Source of the DNA: Fragilaria crotonensis
Taxonomy: Eukaryota > Bacillariophyta > Fragilariophyceae > Fragilariales > Fragilariaceae
Direction of reading: 5' to 3'
Length of the DNA: 24,182 bases
Assembly (NCBI GenBank): GCA_022925895.1
Contig: JAKSYS010000803.1
Span: 1-24,182, forward strand
Shown here: positions 4,068 to 23,721 of the stretch, piece by piece
How positions within the stretch are numbered: position 1 is the stretch's first letter
Layout: every line of letters begins with the position of its first letter
Notes under the pieces: model-generated
What the model was told of the DNA's origin: nothing
What the model saw: the letters and a program-made list of their open reading frames with translations, nothing else
Database searches by the model: none
Program-made: the position numbers and the translations under genes

Positions 4068-4468
4068 CCCCTAAGGAAAAGGGGCTCTAAGTAGATAAAA
4101 TATCATCAAGTATTTATATTTTTATTTGATACGGTGGGTGGATTTTTACTTAAGGATTTTACGGTTGGTGTGGATTTTGGAGGTCCGGTGGTACCTTATT
4201 ATTTAACAACTTTAACACTTGGTGTTACCGAGCTTTCTACGACTTCCTTGGTATGTTAACATAGGAGGTACACAGCATGCATACAAGTATCATCGTGTGT
4301 TATTTTCTGGTAATAACTTCTTGCGTAGCCACTTTTCCACCAAAAAAGTGGAGTATGACATCCAGTAAATCTAACTACGTACAGTGACATACTTCCGTAA
4401 CGTAGTTTACTGTAGTTTTTAAACGAAATACAGTTAATTCATCATACTGTTGTCTGCATTTGTCACAT
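4068..4468 (+). mobile_element. CCTAAGG-family element, copy 1 (5' end, truncated)
   Basis: The copy begins with CCCTAAGG at 4069-4076 inside the last unit of the 177-180 bp repeat. TAGATAAAAT follows, then a degenerate hairpin (TCAAGTA at 4106, TATTTGA at 4123). Four iteron-like words start at 4131, 4161, 4181 and 4215, based on ACGGTGGGTG. TTTACTTAAGG lies between iterons 1 and 2. No gene follows and the rest runs into a minisatellite. The right boundary is not visible, so 4468 is only where the next repeat starts. Confidence 0.75.
4131..4227 (+). promoter_or_regulatory. iteron set of copy 1
   Basis: The words begin ACGGTGGGTGGA (4131), ACGGTTGGTGTG (4161), AGGTCCGGTGGTA (4181) and ACACTTGGTGTTA (4215). 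Start-to-start distances are 30, 20 and 34 bp. The last two words are weak matches and are accepted mainly because the spacing agrees with the other copies. Confidence 0.5.
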
Positions 4469-4894
4469 ACAAGTACCTACTAGTACAAGTACCTACTAGT
4501 ACAAGTACCTACTAGTACAAGTACCTACTAGTACAAGTACCTACTAGTACAAGTACCTACTAGTACAAGTACCTACTAGTACAAGTACCTACTAGTACAA
4601 GTACCTACTAGTACAAGTACCTACTAGTACAAGTACCTACTAGTACAAGTACCTACTAGTACAAGTACCTACTAGTACAAGTACCTACTAGTACAAGTAC
4701 CTACTAGTACAAGTACCTACTAGTACAAGTACCTACTAGTACAAGTACCTACTAGTACAAGTACCTACTAGTACAAGTACCTACTAGTACAAGTACCTAC
4801 TAGTACAAGTACCTACTAGTACAAGTACCTACTAGTACAAGTACCTACTAGTACAAGTACCTACTAGTACAAGTACCTACTAGTACAAGTACCT
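4469..4894. repeat. perfect 16-bp minisatellite, about 26.6 copies
   Basis: The unit ACAAGTACCTACTAGT repeats without any change that I can see from 4469 to 4884 (26 full units), with a partial unit to 4894. The unit contains the palindromes GTAC and TACTAGTA. The array ends where GTACCTAC becomes GTACCTAAGG, the terminus of the next element copy, so CCTA is shared by array and element. Perfect identity implies recent expansion or an assembler-collapsed array of uncertain length. Confidence 0.95.
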
Positions 4895-6208
4895 AAGGGG
4901 GCGGGGTTCAAATTAGATAAAATGTCCTCAAGTATAGATGCTTTTACTTGATACGGCCGGAGGGGAAATTTGTACGTCCGGAGGGGAATTTTATACGTCC
5001 GGAGGGTTTTTACTTAGGAACGACTACGTCCGGAGGAAAACGCTATCCGTACAATTTGCTCGTACAAAAATATGGCGCAATTTAGGTGCATCAACTCATC
5101 GAATGATAGTCTTTACGTATGTTAAACCAGGTATGGTCAAAATGTTTTTGCCGCCCAATTTTTGAACTATGCACTCGGCACTCCTGGTACAAGCGCCATT
5201 ATCACATCATGATGACCACCCTTGAGATACAAGAGGTGACTACCAACAACATGTCTCCTTTGCAAGCATCTGATCAACTTGATCACCCCTGCATCACTTC
5301 AAGGTATATTTTCCATTTCTCCCTTGGACTTGGGTGTCGACTCTGCCCAAAAAGTGTCTATCAGATCAATGAGAGATGCATCCGTGAGCATGTCAAAAAA
5401 CATGGTTTTGACAGCAGGGCCGCGTCTATCCGTTCCCTTTTTGATACTTTTGTAACAAAACTGGAAGTCATAAAGGCTGCTGGAACAATTGAGCCGTTCG
5501 AATTGACAACAGTACTTATAAGGGATTTTCATGCATCTGCGGTGAAGTTTTTCCAAGAAAGGACAACGCACGCCGTCACTGCACAAGGTTGGGTTGTGAT
5601 CCGTCTTGTCTCCAGAAGGTTGAGCTCATCAAATTGTGTTGTGGTCAATTTGTTTCAGAGGTGCAAATTGACAAGTTCTTCAACACTGTACCTCGAATCA
5701 CGCAGCAATTTGATTACTGCAAGGCAAGAGCGGCTTTGCTTCCTTTCCTTCCACCCAGGAAAAGCACGACCATACGTACACACATGTACACCCCATCATT
5801 GATGGTTGTGTTTGTCCACAAGACTTTGTAAGAAGGATAAAAAATGACTTCATTTCTATCCATTCTCCACCGAGCCAAATGCATGAGACAGTTCTGATCA
5901 AAATTCATAACCAAGCTGAAAATTGGCTTTTGAATTTTGCGCAGAAGAATATTTTGATGGTGCCAGGGAATCTCCGCGCTGGACTACAAAATTTTGATGC
6001 TGGTGAAGTCAATGGTATGTCACAAGGGAAGACTTATACGATGCAGCATGATCCATCCAGCTTACTACCTGAATTGAAGAAGCTTTTATCCTATTCCTAT
6101 CGCAAGGGCCTTTTTGCATCAAGGGGTTTTGATGAAAGCGATGAATTTGCAGTCGCATATTTTTTGAAAGATTTTTTGCTTGAAGTTCCACCATCAGTTG
6201 CCACGCAT
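4892..6208 (+). mobile_element. CCTAAGG-family element, copy 2, carrying a helicase-gene relic
   Basis: The terminus CCTAAGGGGGCGGGG starts at 4892 within the minisatellite. A hairpin (TCAAGTA 4928-4934, TACTTGA 4945-4951) and four ACGTCCGGAGG iterons follow. A leader near 5112 (ACGTATGTTAAACC) is shared with copies 3, 6 and 7. The N-terminal part of a helicase gene starts at 5209. The copy is cut at 6209 by copy 3. It links the terminus to the helicase gene independently of copy 8. Confidence 0.8.
4953..5036 (+). promoter_or_regulatory. iteron set of copy 2 (ACGTCCGGAGG x4)
   Basis: ACGGCCGGAGG starts at 4953, and ACGTCCGGAGG starts at 4974, 4995 and 5026. Distances are 21, 21 and 31 bp, close to 2, 2 and 3 turns of B-DNA. 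TTACTTAGG lies in the longer spacer. The set lies ~170 bp upstream of the helicase relic start, so it could be an operator, an origin-like site or a recombinase site. Confidence 0.8.
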
Positions 6209-6214
6209 CCCTAA
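5209..6214 (+). pseudogene. truncated OrsD/telomere-linked-helicase-like gene, N-terminal part only
   Basis: This is a diverged relative of the gene at 13722-17799, alignable by eye across three frames (breaks near 5510 and 5785). It shows a C2H2-type finger (GCRLCPKS...REHVKKH), a second CxC...HC finger (FSCICGE...RRHC), LIKLCCGQFV, and the block LMVPGNLRAGLQ...YTMQHDP...LLPELKKLLSYSYRKGLFASRGF. It ends at PPSVATHP, then a TAA contributed by the inserted CCCTAAGG of copy 3. In the intact relative the matching protein continues into the helicase motor, so about three quarters of the gene is missing. The start at 5209 (ATGATG) is chosen because homology begins shortly after. It cannot encode a helicase. 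Confidence 0.85.
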
Positions 6215-6270
6215 GGAAAAGGGGTTCGAACTGGATAAAAAATCCTCAAGTATAGATGCTTTTACTTGAT

Positions 6271-6355
6271 ACGTCCGGAGTGGTGAATTTACGTCCGGAG
6301 GGGGATTTTTGACGTCCGGAGGGATTTTTTACTTAGGAATTATCACGTCCGGAGG
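6271..6355 (+). promoter_or_regulatory. iteron set of copy 3 (ACGTCCGGAG x4)
   Basis: ACGTCCGGAG starts at 6271, 6291, 6312 and 6345 (spacing 20, 21 and 33 bp). The layout and sequence match copy 2, including TTACTTAGG before the last iteron, so copies 2 and 3 belong to the same subfamily. Confidence 0.8.
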
Positions 6356-6479
6356 AGAATCACTCCCCATGCGGAGACAACATCACGTATGTAAAACATG
6401 GTATTGTTAGAATGTTTTCGTAGACCAAATTTGGAGCTGTGCACTCCAAACTCCCGATGTCAGTGCTGCTTTCATGTCC

Positions 6480-7480
6480 ACTGTTTGCCTCATTTTGTTT
6501 GAAGATCTGTTGTGCAAGTGCCTACCACTGTTCTCAACATCCATGGTTTCAGATATTCGAATGCAGTGGTGGTGCACATGCCAATCACGATAAAAAATCA
6601 ATTGTCGATTGATGATCTGTAAATTGTTGTTTGGATCCTCAAGAGGTACATTTTGTTCAAAGATCTGTCGTGTAAGTTTCATCTCCACTGTTCTCATCGT
6701 GCATCCTTTCAGATACTACCTTGGACAATTATTCGTTAAGATGGAGTATGAACCACACATGTGGTGTACATGCCGAACACGTTTAAAAAATGAATGTCAT
6801 TGTGCGAATTGTTGTTCCAAAACTCAAGAGGTACCATTCGTATTGTTGTTTCAAAACTCAAGAGGTACCTTATGCTTGAAGATCTGTTGAGCAGCTTTGT
6901 AAGTGAAGATGAAGTAATGTTTTGCGGAGTTGGATCATTTGTGAATCACGATTGGACACTCAAATTTCATTCTCTATTTCATTGTTTGCATTCGTAACAG
7001 GTGCGGTTGTTTGGAGGTCCAACATTATTCGAGGTAAACCAATCTCAAAGTCTGTCCTTTCAGATTGAAAATTGGACTCTTATTCGTGACGAAACAGTAT
7101 GAAACGAGGACTGAGTTCATGTGTGATTCACGATTGAACACCAAAACTTAATTCTCTATCTTATTGTTTGCATTCTAAAGAGGTTTGTTTCCGTCAGAGG
7201 TCTTGTGTCCAACATTCTTCAATGTCTACTCTTCTCAAGGTCTGTTGTTTCAGATTTAAAATCAGGCTCTAATTCGTCAAGATACAGTATGCAACAAGGA
7301 GTTGGTACATGTGCGAATCACCATTAATGACTTGGTATTCATTCTCAATTCAGTTGTTTGCATCCTCAACAGGTTTGTTTCCGTCGGAGATCTTTTCCTG
7401 AACATTCATCGAGGTCAATTCTTCTCAAAGTGTGTTGTGACAGATTTCAAATTGGACAATTACAAGGCAAGATACGGTAT
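6480..7480 (+). repeat. diverged ~180-190 bp tandem units inside copy 3
   Basis: TTGTTTGCAT/TTGTTTGCATT recurs at 6982, 7164 and 7354 (periods 182 and 190). Each is followed by an AGGT word and, about 70-90 bases later, a CTTTCAG or GTTTCAG word, then text like ATTGGACTCTTATTCGTGA. More diverged units precede at about 6480-6900. They are related to the regular array at 10750-11640. No reading frame is conserved between units. Confidence 0.65.
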
Positions 7481-7922
7481 GAAATGCATATTTGGTTCTT
7501 CTGCAAATCGAAAACTTGTAATTCCTTCTTCAAAATGTTACAATAGTTTGCTCATCATCATTGTTGGTTGCTTATCGTTGTTGTTGTCACATCAGGAGTG
7601 TTTGTTACTTTGATGGTTTCGTCTCGTCATTGCTTACTTTGCTCACAAAGCATCATTGTCGATGATTTGTTCAAAAATCCATTACAAGTCATACTTGGTC
7701 ATTCAGTCATATTCAAGTATTCAAAAATAGTTTCCTTCGCTCCCATGCAAACCATTGTTTGCTATATAATTCTTACTTAGAAATATTTGCTAAAAGAATA
7801 AAATACTTAGAAAAATCAAGGCTAACTGAAATAGTTTCCTTTGCTTCCATTGAAACCATTTCACGTAAAGTATGAAATGTGATTGGGGTTACTTAGGTGA
7901 AAATTGCACAATTAAATAGTTT

Positions 7923-8090
7923 CCTAAGGGGGCGGGCCTAAAAATAGATAAAATATCCACAGATATAGATACTTTTACTTGATACGACGGGTGTCATTTT
8001 TAACTTAGGATTTGTACGGTGGATGTCACTTTTTGTACGTCGTGTGTCACTTTTATTTAGAGACGTGTACGTCGGGTGCTACGCCGCGTT
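7923..8090 (+). mobile_element. CCTAAGG-family element, copy 4 (168-bp terminus only)
   Basis: CCTAAGGGGGCGGGCC starts at 7923. TAGATAAAAT, a weaker hairpin (ATATAGATACTTTTACTTGAT region) and four iterons follow. The copy is cut after GTCGGGTGCTACGCCGCGTT by copy 5. It is nearly the same as the first 170 bp of copy 7, so these two form one subfamily. Confidence 0.75.
7984..8081 (+). promoter_or_regulatory. iteron set of copy 4 (ACGNNGGGTGTCA x4)
   Basis: ACGACGGGTGTCA (7984), ACGGTGGATGTCA (8016), ACGTCGTGTGTCA (8037) and ACGTCGGGTGCTA (8069) are spaced 32, 21 and 32 bp apart. TAACTTAGG lies in the first long spacer and TTATTTAGAG in the second. Confidence 0.75.
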
Positions 8091-8333
8091 CCCTAAGGAG
8101 AAGGGGCTGTTTCTAGATAAAAAGTCTTCAAGTATGAATGCTTTTACTTGATACCACTGGTGGTGTTTTTAAAACAAAACGAAACCTAATTATCGGGTTG
8201 TCACCGTCCTGAGACCGTACGGACTCAAGTGTGTACCCCATCCCGGCGAACCCGGAGATCCGCGAGGAATTTACTTGCTAGCTATGAAAGTGACCGTTGA
8301 CCGAAATATGACGTTATCAGCGTTTGACGTTCG
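8091..8333 (+). mobile_element. CCTAAGG-family element, copy 5 (short, truncated)
   Basis: CCCTAAGGAGAAGGGG starts at 8091. A good hairpin follows (TCAAGTA near 8128, TACTTGA near 8145). Only one iteron-like word, ACCACTGGTGGTG at 8153, is clear. The remainder to 8333 shows no gene or repeat that I recognise. It is cut by copy 6. Confidence 0.65.
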
Positions 8334-8985
8334 CCCTAAGGGGGCGGCCGAAAATATAGATAAAAAGCTTCAGGTATGCATGTTTTTACTTGATACGTTG
8401 CGAGGGCGTCGTTGTACGTTCGAGGTACGTCCGGAGAGATTTCTTTGTACTGAACATCCCCGTAGATTTATGTACCATGTTGAGGATTGTCAAAGTGCTT
8501 TGAAGTATGTACAACCTGGTATGCTCACTTATACTTTGCTGCCCATTTTTCTTCTTGTGCACTCGTCGGCACTACTCTAACTACCATGAAGACCACTTGA
8601 TGATTGAGTTTTCATCCTCATCAGGTTTATTTCGTTCAAAGACCTCTTATACAACTTTCGCTTTGAAGTCGCAACGACTATTACTTCAGATTCAAAATTG
8701 GTCTATTTTTTAGCAAGATAGTATGAAATGTGAAGCTGGAGGAATACCAGTCACAACTGAAAACTCGAATTTCGTCGTTCTTATGGCTGTGTTCAGCCTC
8801 AGTGGGTACGTTTCGTTCGAAGACCCGATGTACAACTTTCTTCGCCTTGTCCCATTCTCAACGTTCGTCGTTTCAGATTAAGAATTGGTCTATTTTTAGT
8901 GAAGTTACGGTGTGAAATGCGAAGTTGGTGGCCATGCCATTCGTGATTGAAAACTCAAATTCGTGGTCCATGCACGGAACTTTTG
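8334..8985 (+). mobile_element. CCTAAGG-family element, copy 6
   Basis: CCCTAAGGGGGCGGCC starts at 8334. The hairpin is TCAGGTA (8370-8376) with TACTTGA (8387-8393). Iteron-like words ACGTTGCGAGG (8395), ACGTTCGAGG (8416) and ACGTCCGGAGA (8427) are 21 and 11 bp apart. The shared leader (AGTATGTACAACCTGGTATG) is near 8502. Two body repeat units follow (TTTCGTTC near 8628 and GTACGTTTCGTTCGAAGA near 8806, each with a downstream TTCAGATT). The right edge is uncertain and is set where the character of the sequence changes. Confidence 0.65.
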
Positions 8986-9417
8986 TCACAACGTCACCTT
9001 AACCCGTGACAAACGTGACAACCCTAGCTCCACAAGGTGACGTTCCACAATGTTACTCCGCTTATCTGTCTGTTACCCTATCACGTTTCACGACTAGATT
9101 CGCCAATTGCCTCGCTGACGCCGACTAACGCGTCATTGCGAACACCGGAGTCGCTTAACGTCCACCGCGAGTTTTAAGTATCGCTATCACGACACGTCAC
9201 AAAGACGTTATCGTTTTAAGCGATACACCCGCCTTTCCTCGCCATTGTCCGCAATCCTATTTTGCATTTTTTGTTCTGACAATCTCACAACTCAGCCTGA
9301 CGAAGCATCCAGCGAAAGTCTTAAACATAAAAGACTTGTTAGTTGTCACTTCTCTAAATATCGTTTGATCGGACACAGTGTATTTCTTCCACTTTTACCC
9401 TAACCTACATTCTCACC
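8986..9417 (+). promoter_or_regulatory. putative promoter/leader or LTR with many TGACG-type motifs
   Basis: This ~430-bp stretch upstream of the ATG at 9418 is rich in GTCAC/GTGAC and TGACG words: AACGTCACC, GGTGACGTTCC, GCTGACGCCGAC, CACGTCAC, AGACGTT, CCTGACGAAG. TGACGT is the cAMP-response-element/bZIP core, known from CO2-responsive diatom promoters. The base composition differs from copy 6 to its left. It may be the LTR or promoter of the retroelement-like gene that follows; I could not find a second LTR or a primer-binding site. Confidence 0.4.
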
Positions 9418-10396
9418 ATGTCTAATCCTGCGACCAGCGCAACAAACAAAAGAGTCCGCCTCTCCAACCCAGCACTCGCTGCTGGAAAAAAGAATCAAGA
9501 TCCGATCACTACCCCAGCAAACGCTGCAAAATCGTCGATCACTCAAGCACTTGCGTCGCACGATTCTAAAGAAAAATCATTCTTCACCCCGTTATGTATC
9601 GAACTTCTTGAATTACAACTTAAGTTGCTACAAAAGAAATCTACGCTACATCGACTTGAAGATCCCTCATTCATTCCAAGAAGCATCAGATTATCTACTC
9701 TACTCGTTTTGTCCAACGACGCGACCGATCATCCTGAAGCCCTCGCTCTTCGTGAATCTATGAAGACTGTGGTCACTACTTATCAAGATAGTGCTCGCGT
9801 GGTCCTCATCCACAAAGCAGCGGAACTTGAAGTGAAAGTACTACATGATACTGTCGTTCAAAGATTCGTCTCTCTTTTAACACATATCTGTTCCACTTCT
9901 CTGCTTGCCAAGTCTGCCGATCAAGCGACTACAAAGTTCACTTTCTACTTTGTATGTTGAACGAACGGAGGAATGCAAGCGGAACTCTGTACACGCGACG
10001 AATTCTCAAAAGTTCGATCTCGTTTCCTACCAAGACCCCAGGGTTCTTGATAGAGGCTGGATTACTAACCCAGCATCGCTCGCGGACTGCACTTCTTATT
10101 GAGGAAACAAACCCACCGGGTGAAATCCTTAAGATCCAACGCTTCGTCCACACACCGATGGAACAATATTTTGTCTCTGTTGCTTACCAATCTTCTAAAC
10201 AGAAGTTGGGTGCATATTTTACGAACAAACTGTTACGAAAGCTACTGAAACGGCATCCATGCAAATTGATTCGAATATTGAATTGCGCTCGGAGACGTTA
10301 CAATCGCTCATCGATACTGCCCTTCTCAAACAATCCAAAGAATTCGAGAGAAAGCATAAAAGCCTGGAGAATACTGTCAAACAGATATCCGCCTAA
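9418..10396 (+). pseudogene. broken coiled-coil protein gene, possibly retroelement gag-like
   Basis: The ATG at 9418 follows TTCTCACC and opens a 180-codon frame. It starts with a basic, Ala/Ser-rich tail (TSATNKRVRLSNPALAAGKK) and continues with FFTPLCIELLELQLKLLQKKSTLHRL and a helical region rich in Glu, Val and Leu. After 9957 the coding text passes through other frames. It ends in a charged helix at about 10244-10396 (MQIDSNIELRSETLQSLIDT, KEFERKHKSLENTVKQISA) whose TAA lies inside the CCTAAGG of copy 7. I recall similar repeated diatom proteins associated with retroelements, but that is memory, not evidence. No zinc knuckle, protease or RT is visible. The true C-terminus is lost to the insertion. 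Confidence 0.55.
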
Positions 10397-10426
10397 GGAG
10401 AAGGCCCTAAGGAGAAGGCCCTAAGG
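10391..10426 (+). repeat. 14-bp tandem repeat of the element terminus
   Basis: The terminus word occurs three times in register: GCCTAAGGAGAAGG (10391), CCCTAAGGAGAAGG (10405) and CCCTAAGG starting the GGGGCGGG form at 10419. No other copy in the window has a reiterated terminus. Confidence 0.9.
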
Positions 10427-11640
10427 GGGCGGGCCTAAAAATAGATAAAATATCCTCAGATATAGATAATTTTACTTGATACGGTGGGTGTCATTTTTAA
10501 CTGTGCATTTGTACGGTGGGTGTCAATTTTTGTACGTTGTGTGTCACTTTTTATTTAGAGACGTGTACGTCGGGTGCTACGCCGTGATCCCGTAGATCCT
10601 GTACCATCTCAATTGGCACGCCTTGTTTCTTGCCTTAAAAGCACCATGCCTCACACGTATGTTAAACCTGGTATGGACCAAGTCTTTCTGCTGACAAATT
10701 TTTGAGTAATGAACACCATACTCCTGGTCCGAGTGCTGTTATAATTTCAATGTTTGCATCCTCAACCGGTACGTTTCGTTCAATGGCCTACTATCAAACT
10801 TTGTTTGAGATTGATTTGTCTCAACGTCCGATGTTTCAGATTTGAGATTGGACTGTTTTTCGTAAAGATAGATAAGGAAATGCAGAGGTGGTCAACATGC
10901 CAATCACGATTCAAAACTCGAAATTCGTTCGCCCATCTGCTGATTGCATCCTTAAGCAGTACGTTTCGTTCGATGGCGTACTATCAAACTTTGTTTGAGG
11001 TTAATTTGTCTCAACGTCCGTTGTTTCAGATTTGAGATTGAACTATTTTTCGTGAAGATAGATAACGAAATGCAGAGGAGGTCAACATGCCAATCACGAT
11101 TCAAAACTCGAAGTTCGTTCGCCCTTCTGCTGATTGCATCTTTAACAGGTACGTTTCGTTCAATGGCCTACTATCAAACTTTGTTCGAGGGTAACTTGTC
11201 TCAACGTCTGTCATTTCAGATTTGAGATTGAACTATTTTTCGTGAAGATAGATAACGAAATGCAGAGGAGGCCAACATGGCAATCACGATTCAAAACTCG
11301 AAGGTCGTTCGCCCTTCTGCTGATTTCATCCTTAAGCGGTACGTTTCGTTCGATGGCCTACTATCAAACTTTTTTCGATGTTAATTTGTCTCAACGTCCG
11401 TTGTTTCAGATTCGAGATTGGACTGTTTTTCGTGAAGATAGAGAATGAAATGCAGAGATGGTCAACATGGCAATCACGATTCAAAACTCGAAATTCGTTC
11501 GCCATTCAGCTGTTTGCATCGTTAACCGGTACGTTTCGTTCACTGATCTTCTATCAAACTTTCTTCGAGGATGATTTGTCTCAACGTCCGTCATTTCAGA
11601 TTTTCAATTGGACTATTTTTGGTGACGATACAGTATGCGG
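10392..11640 (+). mobile_element. CCTAAGG-family element, copy 7
   Basis: After the triplicated terminus come TAGATAAAAT, a weak hairpin, four iterons and the shared leader near 10654 (CACGTATGTTAAACCTGG, then ACTCCTGGTCCGAGTGCTG, which parallels 5180-5200 of copy 2). The body is a five-unit 190-bp tandem array. No helicase gene follows, so this is a non-autonomous derivative sharing its first ~330 bp with the helicase-bearing copy 2. The right edge is not defined. Confidence 0.75.
10481..10579 (+). promoter_or_regulatory. iteron set of copy 7 (ACGGTGGGTGTCA x4)
   Basis: Iterons start at 10481 (ACGGTGGGTGTCA), 10513 (ACGGTGGGTGTCA), 10534 (ACGTTGTGTGTCA) and 10567 (ACGTCGGGTGCTA). Spacing is 32, 21 and 33 bp, the same pattern as copy 4. 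Confidence 0.8.
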
Positions 11641-11649
11641 CGTCGGTGC
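10751..11649 (+). repeat. 190-bp tandem array, five units, intron-like signals
   Basis: ACGTTTCGTT starts at 10771, 10961, 11151, 11341 and 11531, an exact 190-bp period. Units share GTACGTTTCGTTC, CTATCAAACTTT, TTGTCTCAACGTC, TTTCAGATTTGAGATTG and CAATCACGATTCAAAACTCG. Because 190 is not a multiple of three, long plus-strand open frames here do not keep one frame between units, so I read them as non-coding. Each unit has GTACGT and, about 70 bp later, TTTCAG. Confidence 0.9.
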
Positions 11650-12019
11650 ACATAACAACAATGATTGGAAACTCCAAAATTGTTCTGCAAATCAATTTTT
11701 ATGAACTCAGCAGGACCGTCTCGTTCCATTGTCTTCACTTCAACTCTGTTTGTCTTTTTAGAGTCTAAATGACGGTTGTTTTAGATTTTATATTGGACTC
11801 TTTTCACAAAAAAACGTGAAATCTATTTTACGTGTGGTCACTGTGTCTCTTGAATAGACGTTACATAACAACAATGATTGGAAACTCCAAAATTGTTCTG
11901 CAAATCAATTTTTATGAACTCAGCAGGACCGTCTCGTTCCATTGTCTTCACTTCAACTCTGTTTGTCTTTTTAGAGTCTAAATGACGGTTGTTTTAGATT
12001 TTATATTGGACTCTTTTCA
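11650..12019 (+). repeat. recent direct duplication, 157-bp copies 213 bp apart
   Basis: The sequence from ACATAACAACAATGATTGG to ATATTGGACTCTTTTCA occurs at 11650-11806 and again at 11863-12019, apparently without differences. The 56-bp spacer (from CAAAAAAACGTGAAATC) is single copy. Identity implies a recent duplication. It continues the degenerate body repeat of copy 7, since TTGGACTCTTTTC and TTTTAGATTTTATATTGG resemble its units. Confidence 0.85.
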
Positions 12020-12220
12020 GTGAAGATACATCATGAAATGTCATGTTGGTGCTCGTGCTCCGGATTGTGTTATGAAACCACTATGTTAGGATGAGATGAT
12101 AAAATTCCATGATGAGTACTGTACATGTAGTATTTTATGGTTTGTGTACAACAATAGTGTAAAGGGAATAATCGACTGTACATACTGAAGGAATATTACT
12201 GTAAGACGTGATGCTTACGG
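12020..12220. other. AT-rich spacer, nothing recognised
   Basis: No gene, long repeat or element terminus is visible between the duplication and the 52-bp tandem repeat. Confidence 0.5.
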
Positions 12221-12376
12221 GTCAAAAACTCGTCATGTGTTCCCTGTGACGAGTTTTTGATTATTGCAATTGATCGAAATCTCGTCATGTGTTCCATATG
12301 GCAAGTTATTGATTATGGAAATCGATCGAAAACTCGTCATGTGCTTGATATGGTGAGTTATCGATTACGGCGATTG
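12221..12376. repeat. 52-bp tandem repeat, three units; first unit forms a perfect 14-bp stem
   Basis: CTCGTCATGTG starts at 12229, 12281 and 12333 (period 52). In unit 1, TCAAAAACTCGTCA (12222-12235) is an exact inverted copy of TGACGAGTTTTTGA (12247-12260) around an 11-base loop. In units 2 and 3 the right arm is degraded (GGCAAGTTAT, GGTGAGTTAT). It abuts the GC-rich copia fragment. Confidence 0.85.
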
Positions 12377-12384
12377 AGCATGCA

Positions 12385-13482
12385 CAGTTCCGAGGACCGC
12401 ATCGGCCTGATTCGATTCCCAAGCCGCGCGTCCGCTCATCCTTCGGAGGATATCTGCATCAGTTTGCAGCCTACCCGTCTTCGCGGCGGCCTGACTTTCA
12501 CTGATGCCCTCCTCATTCCGACGTCGGATGCCCAAGTTGCCCCTTTGCCCTGCGGACCTCATCGTTTCGTTGTCGATCCTTTTACCACTGTCGTCGCGCC
12601 GCCTCCTGCCTACTACCCATCGTCGTGCGCCACCACGCTCGATGCGATGGTTTTTCCGGAGTTCCTTGATGCCTCCACATCAGTCGTTGAGCAGAGCTTC
12701 GCTGTTAACGCTCTCGGACGCTCCGCACTCCGCATGTTGTGGCACCAACGCCTTGGTCATCTGAATTTCCGTCGACTCTCCGAACTCCACAAGCACACTC
12801 GGGGTATGCCCGTACTCAGCCTCCCAGACACTGTCGACGAATGCGCGGTTTGCATGTCGTCCAAACTGCGAAAAACTTCGCGTGGCCACGCCAACACCAT
12901 GACTGCGACCGAGTGTCTTCAAGGTCTTGGAATCGATTTCGCTTTCATGGTACAAAAGAGCTCCGACTCCAAGCGTTTCGACAACTTGGTCGGTCACAAC
13001 GGCGAGACCTGTTACGTTCTGATCACCGACCATTTCAGTGGCCGATTGATTGGTCGCGCATTCGCCACCAAAGCCCCGCCTGTGGATTGGCTGAATCAGT
13101 GGCTCGCCAACAATGCACCTGCATGTAACGGAAAGTATGTTCGGATGGATGGTGGTGGAGAACTTGGGGGCGCTGTCGCGAAATCCTTGATACTTTCGCC
13201 AACTTTGGTTATCAAACCCAGCTTACTGGCCCCGACTCCTCCCACCAGAATGGGCCCGGCGAACGTCCCCATCAAACCATCGGTGATGCCCTGCGCGCCA
13301 TGTTGACCGGCGCCAGTCTCCGTCCCGCTTTTTGGCCGTACGCGTTCTATCATTTTGTCCGCCTGTACAATTTTATCCCACATGGCGCCCGGATGTCCAG
13401 TCCCCATGAGTTGTGCGGCGGCGAACTCCCCGATTTGTCCAAATTACGCACCTTCGGTTGCCGTGTCCACGTGCGTCCCTAA
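12385..13482 (+). pseudogene. Ty1/copia (CoDi-like) pre-integrase and integrase fragment
   Basis: The text LWHQRLGHLNFRRLSELHKH ... ECAVC is the H-H-C-C GAG-pre-integrase finger. The integrase core follows: GIDFAF (first Asp, near 12935), DGGGEL (second Asp, near 13148) and NGPGERPHQTI (Glu at 13261), then FWPYAFYHFVRLYNFIPHG. The Asp-to-Glu interval is about 37 residues, as expected for D,D-35-E. One base is missing in the G-run near 13168, which switches frame. Gag, protease, reverse transcriptase, RNase H and LTRs are absent. The right end stops at CGTCCC, where CCCTAAGG of copy 8 adds TAA. NGETCYVLITDHFSGRLIGR-type text is characteristic of diatom CoDi elements. GC content is clearly higher than in the flanks, marking a separate origin. 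Confidence 0.9.
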
Positions 13483-13720
13483 GGGGGGCGGGGTTCAAAC
13501 TAGATAAATTTTCCTCAAATATGTATATTTTTACTTGATACATCAGGAGCCATTTTACTTAGGCAAATTTGCATCGGGAGCCATTTTTCTGCATCAAGAG
13601 CCACTGATTACTTAAGGAAAGTTGCATTGGGAGCTACAGATTGCTTCTGTAGACTCTCCTATCCATGAATTTAAACTCGATCATACCATTCATCCCTTGG
13701 CAATCACAATAAAATCATAC
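13477..13720 (+). mobile_element. CCTAAGG-family element, copy 8: terminus and leader of the helicase-bearing element
   Basis: CCCTAAGG at 13477-13484 inserts in the copia integrase. TAGATAAATTTTCC, a hairpin (TCAAATA 13515-13521, TACTTGA 13532-13538) and four iterons follow. A small CTACAG/CTGTAG stem lies at 13634-13652. The helicase ATG is 238 bp from the end of the terminus. No other CCTAAGG terminus occurs from here to the window end, so the element could extend through all remaining genes; only the left end is visible. Confidence 0.8.
13540..13636 (+). promoter_or_regulatory. iteron set of copy 8 (GCATCGGGAGCCA x4)
   Basis: ACATCAGGAGCCA (13540), GCATCGGGAGCCA (13571), GCATCAAGAGCCA (13591) and GCATTGGGAGCTA (13624) are spaced 31, 20 and 33 bp apart. 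TTACTTAGG and TTACTTAAGG occupy the two long spacers. Spacing matches copies 4 and 7 although the word itself differs. The set ends ~85 bp before the helicase ATG. Confidence 0.8.
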
Positions 13721-13721
13721 C

Positions 13722-16700
13722 ATGCTGCCGATTGCAACATCCAGGAAGCGATGCGCATCGGATGGGATACATTTGCCAGCATTGATTGAAGCAAATGGCT
13801 TTGCTTTCAAGAATCCTTCACCTGTTGTCCACCCCATCATGACTATCCAAGAAGTTTTCACATTCTCTCCGTTTGGTCTAGGTTGTCGACAATGTATTCG
13901 GTCTGCTTCAATTCAGTCAGACGAGAGATCCATTCAAATTCACCTGAAAAAACATGGTATGGACAGTAGGCTTTCGACAGTCCGTTCTCTCCTTGAAGAA
14001 TATAAAATGGAACTACTTCATGCAAAGGCTTTGGGAAGTATCGATCCGTATCGGAGCGACAGCAAAACCTATGCTGGATTTTCTTGTGTGTGTGGTCAAT
14101 CCTTTGTAAAGATTGGAAATGCAAATCGACACTGCAAGACTGTGGGTTGTGATTCTTCAAAACTACAGAAAGTTGATCTCATCAAGCTTTGCTGCGGCAG
14201 GTATGTGACTCATGCTAAAGTCACTTCATTTTTCAACGAATCACCACACAATTCAAAACAGCAATTTGATTATTGTGAGGCAAGAGCTGTGCTTTTTCCT
14301 ATTCTTCCAAAAAGGGAGAAACAGGATCATACGTACACACATATGTTTACACCCCTTATTCATGGATGCGGTGGTGGCAAACAATTCGTCCAGAAGATAA
14401 AATCCGACTTTTCTTCGATCCATTCATCACCGTGCTCATCAACTGAGTTCTTGTTGGTTCAAATCCACAAGCATGCTGAGGATTGGCTCCTTAAGTTCGT
14501 GCAAAAAATATATTGATGGTTCCTGGCAATCTCCGAGCTGGACTTCAAACATTTGAAGGTGGTGAAATAGAAGAGATATCACATCGTTGTACCTACACAA
14601 TGCAACACGATCCACGGAGTTTGCTTCCAGAGTTGAAAAAGCTTTTATCCTTTTCTTACAGACGAGGTCTCTTTGCATCGAGAGGCTTTGACACAAGCAA
14701 TGCCTTTGCAGTGCCCTACTTTTGAAGGACTTGTTGCTTGAAGTCCCTCAATCGGTGGCATCTCTTCCCTTCGTTGCAGAGTTCTGTTTAATGTTTGCTT
14801 TCCGAGTCTCAACCAATGGTTCAGAAATCAACATGATCTCTTGTGACACAGTGTCCTCTGTCTTCTCAAAGATCTCATCAGTTCTGAAGGCAGCCGTTTG
14901 CTCCGTTATCTGTTCATTTTCCAACCAGTCATTTACAATTTTTGGTCCTGCACTTGTCAAATCAGTACGTGAATCACCAGTGATTCACATTTTGTCACCG
15001 ATGGTTCGTCAAATTCGTGAAATGCATCGTCGCATGCCTAAAAGGAGAAAGACAACACTTGATACGGTTGGCAACATTATGGTTGATCAATATTCTTTCT
15101 TATTTGATGAATGGTCTCGAATCGTACCTCGGACAGTGTTCTTGATGCGGGATGCAATTACTGAATTGGCAGACGGGCTATGGTGGGAACCCATTGTTGA
15201 CCTTGCAACAAATATCAAGGTAAGGGTTGACAAGGACACAGGGGACCTTGCTCTTGTCGATATTCACTCAGTTTGGAAGCAAGGTTTGTGCTTGCCTCTT
15301 GAGCATCTGGATTATTTAACTGCACAACTCGAGATGTCTTTTCATGGATTTGGTGGTGGCTCGGCACGAATGACCGAATTGGTTGAACCATCAATGTTTC
15401 ACTGCGTTTACAGCAATGATACTATCTACTATTCCCTTACATCATTGAAAGGTTTCACCAATGCTTCACGACGAAAGTGTAAACAAGTTGAACGCAAGCT
15501 TCCACCAATTATCTCCCGATATTTTTTGTTGTTTCGATCCCTGATCCAAAACAATGGAAGCTTTTTCTCAGATGAAGACTCTCAATCATTAATCTTTCCA
15601 AGGCGAGTCAATCGATCAGATTTTGGACCATCTCATGTGATTCGGGATCTCTTCAACTTGTCGTCATTACCAGACATGACACAGGTTCGTCAGTTCTGGG
15701 CTTGCGTCTCAAATTTTGTTACTGGTGGTGAGCAACACAAGTACTTGTGCTCAAGCACCATCGGAGCATCAAAAATGGGTCATTCAACATTTACTCATGC
15801 ATCTACCTATTCCAGTGAACGAGTCGGTTCAGAAGAGGCCCACTTCAATGCCTATCACTTTGCTTTAGGAGATACATCATATGGATTCTCGAGATGTCAG
15901 AATATTTTATCCTTGGCTAATCTGCGGTCGGCAATGCAACTCCGATATCCAACTTCCTCAACACCAGAGGGTCACAACTACCTTTCCTTGCAACAAAAAG
16001 AGTTGGTTGAGTTTGGGTATGGTATGACCTTCACCAAGCCACAGCATTGCGTTGCTCTACTAGCTCCTGGTGAGGGGAAGTCAGAATGCTACATAATCCC
16101 AACCATTGCTCGCGTCCTCGCAAACCAAAGTACGAAGACCATCATCCATGTTTCTCCGTATCGCTTCCTGGCCGAATATCAGTTCGCCACATGTTCAGCA
16201 GCCTTTAAGAAGCTTGGACTCGATTCCAACATGCGTGTTTTCACCGGGCAAGACATCACTTCTGATGGTGTGTTGCCGGAAGGACTCTACACGAAAGAAC
16301 GTCTTCCGAGTTTACTGTTTTTAAACCTTGATGCCTTAAACAACTTGTTCCATTACTTCGGGGAAGTTTTCAAGTCGTGGTTGGATGTCGTCGACAAAAT
16401 TGTAATAGACGAAGCGCACACCATCCTTTCCGAGACATGTTTCCGAGACAAGTACAAGGTATATTCCAAACTTCCAAGTTTGGGTATTCCCATTGTCATG
16501 TTGAGTGGATCAATGCCTACGTTTGCAGTTTCTAAATTCACAAAGCAACTAGGATTGTCCAACGCTGATGACATGAGTGATGTCAAAGTTATTCTTGGGA
16601 ATCATGTTGTCGGAAAGTTTCCAAGCGGATTTAAGATAAAGGTAGCGGTTTCGTCTCTGTACGTAAACCTCGCTGCCCGATTCGTCCAGAAAAAGATGGA

Positions 16701-17799
16701 CTCAGGTGGAGGACTATCAGGTCCACTTTGTGCTGCTCATATTATTGTTGCCGAGAAGAAGGATGGCATGACTTTATTCGAGCAGCTTTCCACCACCCGG
16801 TATAAATGCAAGTTTGTTTCCTCTGATTCTACTCACCAAGAAGTCAAAGAATCTGCCACTGCATGGAGCAATGGAAAGTTAGACATCCTCATATCGACAA
16901 CCATGGGCTTGGTCGGCAATGAAAATCCATACTGCAGATATTTGGTTTGCGTAGGATATCTGTATGATTCCATGCAGATTGTGCAAGCGTTCGGTCGATT
17001 GCGAAACTACATGAGAACCTCTTTTGGTCAAGTGTTATTCGCGGTTCCCGACAAATTGTCCAATAACCGAACTAAGGATGATGAACATCGCTACACTCGG
17101 CTTTTGAATGAGAACTTTATTTCTTCAAAAGACCATTGCAACTTCAAAGCGGTTATGACATCGAGTGGAGTTCATGATTGGTTATCTGACACCTCCCAAG
17201 GACAGAGGGGTTGTGCGATCAAGATTTTGTCGGCTTCGTTTGGGAGAGAAACGTTAGACAATTGTGGAGCCTGCCACTTTTGTCGCAACATTCCGTTGAT
17301 GAGTCTCCAAAGCGAGGCAACCAACCGCATTCATCAAGTCCGAAAGGATGAATGTGCCTCGCGACGCGTCTTACTCCAATTGTCATCGGCCTGTCTTGTG
17401 TGTGGGAAACCCACGTGTCGAGGAATACCTCTCTTGAGAGGACCAGGTAGCAAGTCCTTGCCAGAGAACCAACAAGTTTGTTTCCAATGGAAAATGTGTT
17501 ACGCATGTGGTGTGAGTACACATGATCGCAAGCTTTGTCCCTTTAAAAAAGATTATTTGAACAACCGAGCATGCTGCGAGTGTTGGGTTTTTAAAGGCGC
17601 TGCCGGTTCCACGAAGCACGAAAGCAACAGCTGCCCAGTTAAGGGCAGACTGCGACGATTACTGTCGCATACCTTCCTCAAAGCAAAAGTGACAGGTACC
17701 TTCCAGGCTTACGTTGAACAAATTTACACTTCAGAAGCATCATTTTCCAAGTTTTTGGCCTCACAGGAGACAGCATTTATGACACCTGCGTCCCGGTAG
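13722..17799 (+). CDS. OrsD/telomere-linked-helicase-like zinc-finger SF2 (RecQ-like) helicase, two frame breaks
   Basis: About 1,358 codons. The first segment (13722 to ~14510) has a C2H2 finger (C55, C58, H74, H78) and a second Cys/His cluster (C122, C124, H137, C138, C143). Single missing bases in an A-run (~14508) and a T-run (~14718) shift the frame. The long segment from 14722 (residues numbered from there) carries Walker A APGEGKS (448-454), DEAH (563-566), motif III SGSMPT (595), a motif V-like STTMGL (725) and QAFGRLR (755, motif VI). A RecQ-like Cys cluster CGACHFC (848-854) precedes further CxxC-rich text to the C-terminus. Family knowledge: this finger-plus-RecQ layout is seen in fungal OrsD proteins and subtelomeric TLH helicases; expected activity is ATP-driven DNA unwinding in the nucleus. 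I infer it is the element's own mobility or maintenance protein because a relative sits at the same place in copy 2. No transposase or recombinase domain is visible. Confidence 0.8.
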
Positions 17800-17894
17800 A
17801 CAGGCGATGTTGTTCAGTCTCTGCCTGTTTATGGCTGCCATTGAGGCCAAATATATTCACCAAAAAATAAGTTGAACTAATGATTGGTTGACAA
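17800..17894. other. short spacer between converging genes
   Basis: Only 95 bp separate the helicase stop from the stop of the minus-strand dioxygenase-like gene, so the transcripts probably overlap at their 3' ends. Confidence 0.6.
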
Positions 17895-19373
17895 CTACTT
17901 TTGCACACTGTTGTTATTACCTCCCACCACTGCAGTCTTTAGGTACAACGACAAGCAAAACACATCCTTGTTTTCATAATTGGATGTTCGCGACGAAAGA
18001 CAGTGTTGATACAATGGGTTGAAAAGAAGCATGTCCCCTGGCCTGAGCGCGACAGCTATCCCTTCCTCAGCAAAGGTGAAGTAATTGCACACTTCAGCTT
18101 CCATGCTGTACCGATCGATATCCTGTCGTAGTCCCCACGCGGAAGCAATTGTTGTCAAGGAATAAAAAAAATCCTCGTCCAAATGTGTGTTCAAGTAATA
18201 GTTCTTGCCACAAGCAAGACTTCCCCATATTTGCTGCGATGACACTCCTTTCAGATTTGGCCACTGTGCCATCATCTTCGCAAATTGCAATCCTCGTAGT
18301 TCATTTGCCGGCACGTATCCTTTGGCAACATCCTGACATGTACTAATCAGCTTGCAAATTTTTTTCTTGTCAACGTTGCTCAACTTTTTGGCCACGATTC
18401 GGAAATACCTTTTCTACCTCTATTTGGCTTTAACCCCACAGTGATGTACTTTCCATCATCCTCCGCCACAGTCACTCGTCTTCCCTCTCACTTCAGCTTT
18501 CGTTTGCGAACCATCCAATGCGTATAGTGATCGAAGTGTTTCATGCACATGCGTCAATTTTTCGATTGCATATTCCCGTGGAATCAATGTGAACACAGTG
18601 TCCCCACCTTCTGATTCCATTCTTGCACCAAGCACTGTATCAACAACCTTGAGATTTTCAATTGCTGATAGCACATGTGCGTTCCGGTGCTGTTTCAGAT
18701 TCTTCATTACCTTATCTCTCGTTCCGCTGAAGAAAATTGGCGTTCCGCTTTTCAAAAGTAATGGGCAAATGCAGTGCACTGGCGATGCCTTAACAAGGGT
18801 CAGTTTTCCTATCTTGTTTTGCTTTTTATAATCGCGTCTTGCCGCCTTCTTGTTTTTTTGTTTTCAATTTTTAAAGATTCATTGTATGCCTCGCGCACTT
18901 TTTTGCTCGATGGTGCTTTGCTTGATTTGTATAGGTGTTGATATCCTCTCTTTCCCATGATTTCATTTTTTGAAGCACTGGTTTTTATTTTGACGACTGT
19001 ACTACGTTTTTTGATGGTTTCCAATTTGATGTTGGATCTTCTGCTACGGCGACATTCCTCTTGGCTAGCAGGGTCCTTTTTCAGAACAGTACTACTAATC
19101 ACGTTCATTTCCTTGTTGGAACACGTGCTATCAACCGTACTATGAATCATGATGGGTTCCGAGTTGAGGTTGGAGCTTCTGCTACCGCGACTAATGTCAC
19201 AGCTAGCGGTGTCCTGGTTAACAACTGTACTGCACACCCATTTCATTTCCATGTTGTAACTCGTGATATCAACCGTACTTTGACTCAGGATAGTTTCCTT
19301 GTCAATCTCGGCGCTTCTGCTACCGCGAGGAATGCCACAGCTAGCGGTGTCCTGTCACAAATGTACTAAGCAT
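17895..19373 (-). CDS. 2-oxoglutarate/Fe(II) dioxygenase-like protein with N-terminal repeats, several frame breaks
   Basis: Coding text runs from an ATG at 19373 through four one-base breaks (about 19355, the A7 run near 18852, about 18490, about 18408) to the stop at 17895. Order: three 46-residue repeats, a Lys/Arg-rich region, a middle block (KLTLVKASPVHCICPLLLKS ... TVAEDDGKYITVGLKPN), then a catalytic-like domain. Numbered from 18395 that domain has NTHLDEDFF (H71, D73) and PGDMLLFNPLYQHCLSSR (H131, R136). This is the HxD...H plus 2OG-binding Arg pattern of Fe(II)/2OG oxygenases on a double-stranded beta helix. Such enzymes include TET/JBP DNA-base oxidases, which are carried by some fungal transposons, but this sequence alone cannot place it there; protein or small-molecule substrates are equally possible. 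It converges on the helicase and diverges from the GNAT gene. Confidence 0.65.
18941..19354 (-). repeat. three 138-bp (46-codon) coding repeats
   Basis: The unit begins QDTASC or similar and contains RGSRS ... STVD ... EM ... STV. Units occupy 19354-19217, 19216-19079 and 19078-18941. The plus-strand word CTAGC recurs at 19065, 19203 and 19341, giving exact 138-bp spacing. Period divisible by three and retained Ser/Thr/charged positions support a coding, probably disordered, repeat. Confidence 0.8.
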
Positions 19374-19746
19374 CAACTTACTTTCCTTGTTGTCTTTTTA
19401 TTCGCCAACACCACTTGCAAAACTCAGCATGGTCATTTCATGTCGATGCAAATGTGAGGTTAGGAGTGAGTTTCTGCGCTCCACACAGTGTATTGATACT
19501 AGATTTTTCGTACGTACACGCCTACGCGCATATCTACGTATACCCCGCTGACAATGCTTGTTAGATTTGGATGTTGACGTCGACTTCTCATCCAAAACTC
19601 GCCACAGTTGTAAACGTCACCAATGGCAGCACCACTACATTCGTGTACAATCTACAGTCAATCTCTTACTTTCGATGTCATTAAAATCTTGCAGATCTCT
19701 CCTTCTCCCTTTTTGTTCTTTCTTTTCCCCTTGTCATTCGTAACTG
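19374..19746. promoter_or_regulatory. divergent intergenic region, probable shared promoter
   Basis: This 373-bp spacer separates the starts of the dioxygenase-like gene (minus) and the GNAT gene (plus). It contains CGTACGTACACGCCTACGCG and a pyrimidine-rich run (TCTCCTTCTCCC) just before the plus-strand ATG. I cannot define a TATA box or operator. Confidence 0.45.
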
Positions 19747-22700: not shown

Positions 22701-23524
22701 AACCAACACAACAAAAGTTGACAGTAAGAGAAAATTAACACAAAACCCGTCGAACATATCGACGAACAGGCAGTGTTGGTGGCCCAGGACCCCCTGCACC
22801 AACTTGGATTTTGGGAATGGAAATCCTTATTACAAGGGTAGTTTAGCAAACAAGGAATTTCGAAGAGAGAATGAAGGAATATTCTCCCAATACGAAAGCC
22901 TACCCCATTAAGTGAGGAAAGAACAAATGCGTTGAGGAAGTTCATGGAAAAATTGGATGGCGATGGTTACCAATTCATGGATTTCAAAGATGGAGTCTGG
23001 ATTGCCCTGGAAGGGGAGAACAAAAATGAGAAAAATTCGACAAGCCTTCGCTGCTCATGCAAGGGCGAATAGAGAAACTGTCGTTAAAGATGACTATCCC
23101 CAAAGTTGCAAACACCACTTCCAAGAAAAAGCCTCCAAGAAAAAGAAAGCTTTAGACGTAACCTCGTCGAACTCACCACCTAATGTGTGAAATCGCCAAA
23201 TCCAGAAGAGTCCCTGGGGTGTGAAAACTCATGCCTCACGTTCCAGCGGAAAACCAGGTTCTTCCACAGTTGGAGAGAGGACCCCAATTTATTCTGCCTG
23301 AAAACAAAATTTTACCTGAAACAAACAACGAAGATGGAGGGACTAATTCGCAAACGGAAGACCGATCGGGTATGGAAGACCTGACTTCTCAACGAGAACT
23401 AGTGTCTTTAAGCAACGTCCTGGCCAACCTTTCCAAAAATACACAAGACACATATGTTTTCCACGAAAACGACGATGTTTCGTGGAAACAAGGAGGGCGT
23501 TGTGGACCTCACACAGCCACGTGA
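19747..23524 (+). CDS. large protein with N-terminal GNAT acetyltransferase domain, many frame breaks
   Basis: The first segment (19747-~20160) contains AISAITFAAAGDSCVILYVA and QNTGMA (Q123-A128), fitting the R/Q-x-x-G-x-G/A acetyl-CoA motif. After one-base breaks near 20160, 20245 (A7) and 20265, NKPTARYYKK and LGF supply the usual GNAT C-terminal A-x-x-Y-x-x-x-G-F. A 561-codon segment (20293-21978) with no family I recognise follows; it ends in basic, nuclear-signal-like stretches (KQKGKDKKRW, KEAAKRLRK, SSKKTKRR). Coding-like text then continues in changing frames to 23524, including an acidic helix (IFKERYDEVKSELEKE), EEHIKAGTTSETAYFKMYWI, WEWKSLLQG and LRKFMEKLDGDGYQFMDFKD. Total is about 1,250 codons. 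I infer a nuclear acetyltransferase of lineage-specific type. It could instead be two genes joined by my reading, with a boundary near 21978. Confidence 0.55.
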
Positions 23525-23590
23525 TGAAAACGAACCATACGATGCACACGAATCATGATACATTATGCACGCGTAGGAACGTAATTCCTG

Positions 23591-23632
23591 ACATAATTGT
23601 TAAGAACGATTAACATTTCTTAACAATTATGT
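23591..23632. terminator. perfect 16-bp inverted repeat between converging genes
   Basis: ACATAATTGTTAAGAA (23591-23606) and TTCTTAACAATTATGT (23617-23632) are exact inverted copies with a 10-base loop. It sits between the stop of the GNAT gene (23524) and the stop of the next minus-strand gene (23722), so it may shape 3' ends of both transcripts; a small foldback element is the alternative. CCCTAACC, a telomere-like word, follows at 23635. Confidence 0.6.
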
Positions 23633-23721
23633 AGCCCTAACCGTGTTTTTTCAACTCAAAGTAGTCGACAATTTTTTCTGATACCTCACGGACAAAACAG
23701 AACCATCATTCCGATCATGCT

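Follow-up and report, generated by a model that had tools for sequence, protein, structure and literature searches.

What reads a short array of repeats that keeps its spacing while its sequence changes from one copy to the next? The question is raised by a 24,182-base stretch of the Fragilaria crotonensis genome (contig C783, + strand; hereafter the window), in which eight units lie one after another, all on the + strand (Table 1). Each follows the same architecture, with a fixed left end, CCTAAGG, then 42-44 nt, the motif TTTTA[C/T]TTGATAC and at most four words of ~9 bp (iterons). The last unit encodes a helicase whose N-terminal part carries two C2H2-like zinc fingers. An earlier note, made from the letters of the window, had proposed that the words are binding sites lying on one face of the DNA helix, that each subfamily co-evolves its own specificity, and that this helicase is the candidate reader. 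Follow-up in the genome (62.1 Mb, 881 contigs) supports the observation and, as far as sequence can speak, its reading, and makes the case stronger than the note could know; the telomeric setting described below is an addition to it. The genome has 61 matches to the chlorophyll-binding family, the best of them closest in the PDB to the fucoxanthin chlorophyll proteins 6ly5 and 6l4u of the diatom Chaetoceros, as befits a diatom. We put at about 0.8 the probability that the helicase binds its own array, that each subfamily does so with its own finger/word pair, and that the units are subtelomeric with a fixed left end.

The words of an array change in concert. A strict module pattern found 60 copies genome-wide, and one built around WTTTAYTTGATAC and the core of the first word found 72, the reversed control giving none in either case. 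The copies were sorted into types A to M, to which P, Q, S, F', J2 and T were later added. Set against 500 dinucleotide shuffles, recurrence of the first word (with at most two mismatches) is in excess (P < 0.05) in 10 of 13 types, types H, I and M failing that threshold. Over 12 types (type M, with one copy, was omitted from the tests of concerted change), words in different slots of one copy differ at a mean Hamming distance of 1.49 of 9, against 3.89 for the same slot and 3.90 for different slots between types, and none of 20,000 permutations was as low as the observed within-copy distance. To exclude picking bias, the sites of 17 types were picked again blind, using a generic core in which A or T was allowed at word position 7 (w7) and w1, w2, w4 and w9 were ignored; none of 5,000 permutations was as low, either for w1/w2/w4/w9 or for w7. 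Both permutation tests take types as independent. The claim that the word is uniform within a copy and different between copies is thus upheld. The base at w7 is constant inside every copy of the 12-type set, being A in eight types and T in four, and the type A consensus, ATCRGGAGC, contrasts with words such as CACAGGAGC (type G) and ATCGGGTGG.

The spacing between the words is conserved. The start-to-start distances noted earlier were reproduced in the window for seven copies (30/20/34, 21/21/31, 20/21/33, 32/21/32, 21/11, 32/21/33 and 31/20/33 for copies 1-4 and 6-8), and those of the type representatives are nearly the same: 19-22 or 30-34 bp, apart from a single 12 and two of 53. The range of 4953-13636 first given for the arrays needs correcting: all eight copies are real, but the true span is 4070-13634 and copy 1 lies outside the noted range. 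The description of the distances as close to whole turns of B-DNA fits (phasing resultant length 0.81 at 10.5 bp). Periods between 10.25 and 12 bp, however, all do about as well (0.78-0.83), and the single spacing common to most types probably reflects, for the most part, shared descent. All 28 pairs among 8 types either share one span from iteron 1 to iteron 4 or differ in it by 2 bp. Gap openings relative to substitutions number 90/949 inside the module and 106/557 in the next 50 bp, and the first spacer of type B is shorter than that of other types by about one turn; the scarcity of indels inside the array and the one-turn step favour constraint on spacing. The type A word pattern matches four times between 13478 and 24182 (10.7 kb), every match lying inside the array of copy 8.

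The type A helicase of the window (13722-17799) matches the Pfam models DEAD (E 3.1e-13) and Helicase_C (E 2.2e-5). Its frame changes between 14502 and 14750, and longer open frames exist elsewhere in the genome. Sequence matches of its core in the PDB are weak and mostly to helicases other than the RecQ family. Finger 1 occupies residues 55-78 (C55-x2-C58...H74-x3-H78) and finger 2 residues 122-143 (C122-x-C124...H137-C138...C143). C55, H74, H78, C122, C124, H137, C138 and C143 are invariant or nearly so in 14 sequences; C58 is nearly invariant in 13, with type G carrying Ser in its place. The spacing is non-canonical, as 15 residues separate C58 from H74 and finger 2 begins C-x-C. AlphaFold2 models built with 14 and 13 family sequences (mean predicted local distance difference test score, pLDDT, 65 for the full N-terminal part and 87 for residues 41-165) place helices at 68-77 and 131-141, starting at the assumed +1 of each finger. 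Structural comparison with VIA-align reached Z 2.7 at most and lists 2lvh, an archaeal-virus zinc finger, at Z 2.4 over 38 residues. In a profile search, 16 PDB sequences matched weakly (E 0.23 to 7.9); C2H2 fingers account for 11, Aart, ZFP91, JACKDAW and Zif268 among them, and the Aart and ZFP91 alignments share the register of finger 2.

As the earlier note had expected, the words covary with the fingers of the linked helicase. The residue scan covered 154 protein columns in up to 15 types, excluding H, I and T, whose full N-terminus was unreadable, and J2 for finger 1. The top column for w1 is residue 73, helix position +6 of finger 1 (mutual information 1.58 of 1.58; p 2e-4, the floor), and that for w2 is residue 72, finger 1 +5 (p 0.03). 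For w7 it is residue 133, finger 2 +3 (mutual information 0.84 of 0.84; p 7e-4), and for w9 residue 132, finger 2 +2 (p 2e-4). Genome-wide, the spacing recurs and iteron type associates with helicase subtype. The pairings can be put as rules: at finger 1 +6, Arg goes with C at w1, Asp or Glu with G, and Ile or Asn with A; at finger 2 +3, Asn goes with A at w7 and Ser with T.

Seven of the 105 left ends read lacked two readable iterons, and among the other 98 finger 1 was readable in 42 and finger 2 in 43. The w1 rule was right in 40 of 42 copies and wrong in none, the remaining two (Leu, w1 = A) falling under no rule, and the w7 rule was right in all 43 (37 Asn/A, 6 Ser/T). Because these counts include the copies from which the rules came and many close relatives, they are not independent trials. 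For finger 2 +2 and w9 the counts were Asp/G 16, Asp/T 9, Gly/C 14, Gly/T 1 and Ala/T 3. Position +6 of finger 2 is Arg in 42 copies and Gln in 1, and position -1 has 29 Arg and 14 Lys, as the near-constant G at w6 and w8 would lead one to expect.

Before the open scan, rules drawn from the first pairs seen had been fixed and applied to 28 further loci, whose fingers were read before their modules. Finger 1 was readable at 21 loci; two (L084, L094) had no module and the module of a third (L075) had been seen earlier, leaving 18. From finger 1 +6, w1 was predicted correctly at 18 of 18 new loci (7 groups), and from finger 2 +3, w7 was predicted correctly at 15 of 15, each with A. Types K, L and C had words known before the prediction, and the wholly new words were those of P, Q, S and F'. 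Ser at +3 had been predicted for unread types with w7 = T and was present in both readable ones, C and Q. In P, K and S most words bore out the w9 prediction. Beyond the types of the residue scan, the finger 1 pieces of H (L061) and T (L100) also obey the w1 rule.

Type G amounts to a natural partial swap. It has its own finger 1, and from residue ~83 to 262, the end of the part read, it is nearly identical to type A. Its words (CACAGGAGC, CACAGGAGC, CATCGGAGC, CATAGGAGC) carry CA at w1-w2 in all four sites where type A carries AT, while w6-w9 are unchanged. In the published C2H2 code, as given in the passages of PMC12264921 on which we draw, helix positions +6, +3 and -1 read the 5', central and 3' base, with Arg, Lys or His specifying G, Asn or Gln A, and Asp C. 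The same passages describe small and hydrophobic residues contacting thymine methyl groups in some proteins, and an Arg-Asp pair at -1/+2 of Egr1 in which Asp reaches a cross-strand cytosine via water (PMC12264921). The predicted contacts of finger 2 fit this code on the written strand, with G for Arg at +6, A for Asn at +3 and G for Arg or Lys at -1, and G at w9 seems to be favoured by Asp at +2. Position +6 of finger 1 apparently reads the opposite strand, pairing Arg with the G opposite C, Asp or Glu with the C opposite G, and Ile with the T opposite A; the fit of Asn at this position (types F and F') is less clear. Covariation is the evidence that helix positions would set the DNA bases.

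Across the stretches of the genome examined, the 105 left ends lie on 34 contigs. The search required CTAAGG, and 5 of 83 modules lack CTAAG at the expected place (one at a locus edge). Where a contig bears several left ends (23 contigs), they all lie on a single strand, and none of the 34 contigs is mixed. Among 87 distinct junctions, 51 (59%) have C directly before CCTAAGG, while C accounts for 22% overall, and the first C of CCTAAGG is kept in 83. Helicase coding is contained in 20 left flanks, in all 20 on the strand of the new element; in the window, copy 3 follows directly after truncated helicase coding. A telomere-repeat origin of the left end was considered: CCTAAGG resembles CCCTAA, yet lies on the strand opposite to that of the telomere faced, and no telomere-repeat run was seen upstream of CCTAAGG in the junctions inspected. 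At three loci (L014:696; L029, minus strand, 730; L036, minus strand, 369), three element types follow nearly one left flank and are joined at the identical base (...TTCTCTC|CCTAAGG), which may reflect either a site where joining is favoured or recombination inside the module that swapped the outer part.

On four contigs the units are found next to telomeres. The genome has two exact (TTAGGG)5 matches, C754:311-340 and C23:331-360, each on the minus strand and close to the start of its contig, and among 17 contig ends examined, mixed CCCTAA/CCCCTAA arrays stand at the left ends of C754, C23, C592 and C490, the inspected tips of the other 13 having no telomere repeats. The two repeat units are irregularly mixed at all four contig starts (L037, L038, L042, L044). 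All 13 left ends on these four contigs are on the minus strand, so that the unit runs from its left end toward the telomere on its right side. Telomere repeats occur together with a helicase on C754, C592 and C490, and with modules on C23. On C592 the order of the type A unit is left end, helicase, distal part, 2.2 kb of a 52-bp satellite and telomere repeats, and on C754 matches cover the outermost helicase from end to end. A second word array near the telomere end was sought with the type A pattern in the 9.6 kb distal part of C592 and with the type F pattern in C754:1-9400, and none was found.

The explanation we favour is that each element's helicase binds the four phased words of that element, with finger 2 reading w6-w9 on the written strand and finger 1 reading w1 through its +6 position. 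Since the finger/word pair is particular to each subfamily, a helicase would recognise the left ends of its own kind. A subtelomeric unit would consist of the CCTAAGG left end, the body and, where the outermost unit is complete, telomere repeats; units stack in one orientation, each newer left end joining a truncated older body or other DNA, and a bound left end would be marked for copying onto a broken chromosome end. The sequence itself shows the words and their concerted change, the correlation of fingers with words, the uniform strand, the fixed left end and, on four contigs, the telomere on the right side. Physical binding, the presence of several helicase molecules on one face of the DNA and the marking of the left end for copying are steps that we infer, and copying to chromosome ends is the likeliest purpose of such binding. 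The units resemble telomere-linked helicase elements, with putative mobility and a left end that is fixed. More speculatively, and with more doubt than belief, we suggest a one-ended mobile element that has at its left an address coded for zinc fingers and at its right the telomere. Such an element would be copied onto broken chromosome ends with no need of reverse transcriptase or transposase; as fingers and address change together, many mutually blind families could then coexist in one nucleus.

A number of results weigh against the explanation that the helicase reads its own array. For w4 residue 141 ranks first and residue 135 (finger 2 +5) second, leaving this position with no clear partner. 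The w9 rule is loose: of 25 copies with Asp at +2, 9 have T, the prediction held partly in the L group (half T, half G) and in F' (half T, half C), and in type C, where Gly at +2 predicted C, T stands in three of four words. The pairing of Ser at +3 with T is compatible with the code, though it is not stated in the passages of PMC12264921 used here. A degenerate copy (L085, C431:4121) has B-like words before an E-like finger 2. The w7 correlation alone fails correction for 154 columns, and the case therefore rests on the four top columns at helix positions, the chemistry, the predictions and the type G swap. A tree of types built without the finger columns is star-like and unsupported, which leaves the independence of the finger-word changes unproven; w7 changes four times on it (shuffled mean 3.7) and w1 seven times (shuffled mean 7.6), and supported (starred) branches yield only one independent pair. 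The fingers themselves match no Pfam zinc-finger model over the cut-off (the best, a BIRD-IDD C2HC finger, reaches E 0.029 in type C), and Foldseek found no PDB match at E <= 0.001 for the 264- and 125-residue models. As to the setting, telomere repeats stand at only 4 of 17 contig ends, two of the four having been picked through the telomere search; on 5 of 15 contigs of at least 60 kb (C273, C122, C199, C271, C300) the elements point to the more distant end; and on C121 a break near residue 8 of P0002 separates the start of a type A helicase from the rest of it, ~26 kb on, as with an ordinary insertion.

How far could the same observations arise in other ways? If words and fingers were simply inherited together, being a few hundred bp apart, they would be correlated without any binding, and the close physical linkage, the small number of types and the poorly resolved tree all allow this. 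We nevertheless regard such hitch-hiking as highly improbable. Linkage prefers no column, yet the tops for w1, w2, w7 and w9 are helix +6, +5, +3 and +2; the residue-base chemistry is near the published code; separated sites change in concert; and finger 2 and w6-w9 are common to types A and G, which differ in finger 1 and w1-w2. That the helicase regulates itself by binding the words, as repressor or activator, the array being an operator in its promoter and not a mark for copying, is a more substantial proposal, suited by the position between left end and helicase start, by four phased sites fit for cooperative binding and by an AT-rich stretch upstream of the array. It nonetheless seems unlikely to us. 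A helicase N-terminus was not detected in 37 of 82 modules up to the next module or the end of the stretch read (at least 860 bp being read in 26), though one of the 37, at C84:75993, has helicase coding further in; in the window, an N-terminus was looked for and not found after copy 7, where 190-bp repeats and the 52-bp satellite come next. Three type A' modules (C23:3639, C121:81467, C122:27696) have no detected helicase and stand at three different left flanks, those on C23 and C121 sharing a body with 190-bp repeats that starts at CCTAAGG, and the position of the array is fixed relative to the left end. Helicase-less modules, varied junctions and a common body from CCTAAGG together favour a cis-acting end over a mere promoter.

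Phased short repeats near an AT-rich stretch are also the mark of plasmid iteron origins, and with a helicase beside them the array could represent initiator iterons of a self-replicating subtelomeric or extrachromosomal unit whose initiator is the helicase. We think this quite improbable, as the open reading frames (ORFs) scanned yielded nothing recognisable as a nickase, Rep or polymerase. Nor does it appear probable that the units are ordinary cut-and-paste or rolling-circle elements nested in each other. The precise left boundary with its varied flanks and the split helicase of C121 would suit such transposons; there is, however, no inverted left end (with up to three edits) and no inverted repeat pair of at least 30 bp in the window, and the left flanks that bear helicase coding are always on the strand of the new element. 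Moreover, the remainders of the helicases cut at hN 211 (the inner type A copy of C754), hC 484 (C490) and hN 108 and hC 338 (C84) do not lie further out among the best matches listed (the best 45 of 135 candidates for P0002).

Several named classes of element were tried and set aside. Helitrons begin 5'-TC, whereas these left ends begin CCTAAGG, and none of ten window ORFs scanned matches Rep or Pif1, the helicase matching DEAD/Helicase_C instead. A DNA transposon with terminal inverted repeats lacks both a minus-strand left end (up to three edits) and an inverted pair (at least 30 bp) in the window, and the outermost C592 unit runs into telomere repeats. A telomeric retrotransposon was rejected because no reverse transcriptase match appeared in the window element ORFs scanned, a set outside which ORFs 18809-19252 and 22546-22911 fall. 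An integron-like cassette array was suggested by the head-to-tail abutment of the units, but their right sides are truncations and the outermost units reach telomere repeats. No AcademH transposase domain was recognised in a general Pfam scan of window ORFs, a scan not aimed at Academ, and no Crypton recombinase domain in the window ORFs scanned.

Some known systems resemble these units in part. The Y' elements of Saccharomyces cerevisiae carry a helicase gene and, in outline, form repeats in the subtelomeres, with telomeric tracts between the units and recombination as their means of spread; what differs here is the variety of left-flank junctions and a word array that matches the helicase fingers. 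In DNA transposons an element's own protein recognises the element end and the two diverge together. The present case differs in that the reader would be a helicase with C2H2-like fingers and that the change can be traced residue by residue. HeT-A, MoTeR, FoTeR and Athena/terminons share a single orientation at chromosome ends and one fixed and one variable end, whereas here the fixed end is on the 5' side of the gene and no reverse transcriptase was recognised in the ORFs scanned. Parts of one report describe several FoTeR proteins with N-terminal C2H2 motifs and the co-location of FoTeR retroelements with subtelomeric RecQ-like helicases (PMC12857005). Subtelomeric helicases have been known since the 1990s and their job is not agreed, to judge from passages of a paper that found the helicase core to be the sole domain of the fungal ones examined (PMC7473861). 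The fungal RecQ-like telomere-linked helicases of Ustilago, Magnaporthe, Metarhizium, Agaricus and Fusarium are likewise multi-copy and often truncated near telomeres, in the portions of the two reports used (PMC7473861, PMC12857005); the present family is set apart, by description, by two N-terminal fingers paired with an upstream word array and a fixed left end. A term search of the main text of the telomere-to-telomere paper on P. tricornutum did not return the word helicase (PMC9266582), and no finger-word pairing is described, at title and abstract level, among the open-licence papers found on subtelomeric helicases, zinc-finger iterons and diatom chromosome ends.

If the DNA target of a subtelomeric helicase can be read from its sequence, the question of its function becomes one for the bench. 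With about 17 finger/word pairs in one genome and a partial finger swap in type G, the family offers a natural evolution experiment on C2H2 fingers; the pairs test the recognition code and may yield mutually orthogonal DNA-binding pairs.

Table 1. Coordinates of units and associated features in the window.
Feature	Position	Strand	Description
Copy 1 (type H)	4070..4225	+	Left end CCTAAGG at 4070; iterons at 4133, 4163, 4183, 4217
Copy 2 (type B)	4892..5036	+	Left end at 4892; iterons GGCC/GTCCGGAGG at 4955, 4976, 4997, 5028
Type B helicase, N-terminal part	5119..6209	+	tblastn matches 5221-6164 in several frames; ends at start of copy 3
Copy 3 (type B2)	6210..6355	+	Left end at 6210; iterons GTCCGGAG at 6273, 6293, 6314, 6347
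Copy 4 (type C)	7923..8079	+	Left end at 7923; iterons at 7986, 8018, 8039, 8071; truncated at 8091
Copy 5 (type D)	8092..8171	+	Left end at 8092; single iteron CACTGGTGG at 8155, then truncated
Copy 6 (type I)	8335..8437	+	Left end at 8335; iterons at 8397, 8418, 8429
Copy 7 (type C)	10420..10577	+	Left end at 10420; iterons at 10483, 10515, 10536, 10569
Copy 8 (type A)	13478..13634	+	Left end at 13478; iterons ATCAGGAGC, ATCGGGAGC, ATCAAGAGC, ATTGGGAGC at 13542, 13573, 13593, 13626
Helicase N-terminal part (P0001), two C2H2-like fingers	13722..14513	+	
Rest of type A helicase	14502..17799	+	DEAD, Helicase_C, Cys-rich C-terminus
Distal part of type A element	17800..24182	+	98-99% identity to C592 and C84 (98.8% to C592)

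The distal part of the type A element contains further coding capacity. An antisense ORF (17895-18395, minus strand) is 68.5% conserved in element ends on C551 and C578; its HxD...H pattern presumably suggests a 2-oxoglutarate dioxygenase, and Pfam gave no match over the cut-off. A chain of ORFs of 142, 561, 168 and 121 aa spans 19747-22911, and the first three, scanned against Pfam, matched nothing over the cut-off. Compared with the C84 and C592 copies, large parts of ORFs 1-3 are at 96-100% identity and ORF 4 at 52-61%.

Between the units lie sequences of other kinds. A perfect 16-bp tandem array of TACAAGTACCTACTAG (4468-4895; 26.8 copies, 100% matches) stops at the left end of copy 2, and similar units lie upstream of the left ends at C84:82872 and C431:33705. 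A Copia-type polyprotein fragment (about 12375-13477; gag_pre-integrs E 2.8e-9) is truncated by copy 8. The short internal stretch of 52-bp satellite at 12225-12367 resembles the 2.2-kb satellite beside the C592 telomere repeats and is possibly a former chromosome end. At 10392-10420 two tandem copies of CCTAAGGAGAAGGC are followed by CCTAAGGGGGCGGG; the pair is apparently two type D left-end stubs, both cut at one base by the next left end, and the same stub stands upstream of elements on C588 (twice) and C754 (once). Finally, the left end CCTAAGG and the motifs CTTAGG/CTTAAGG in the spacers between iterons resemble each other inverted.

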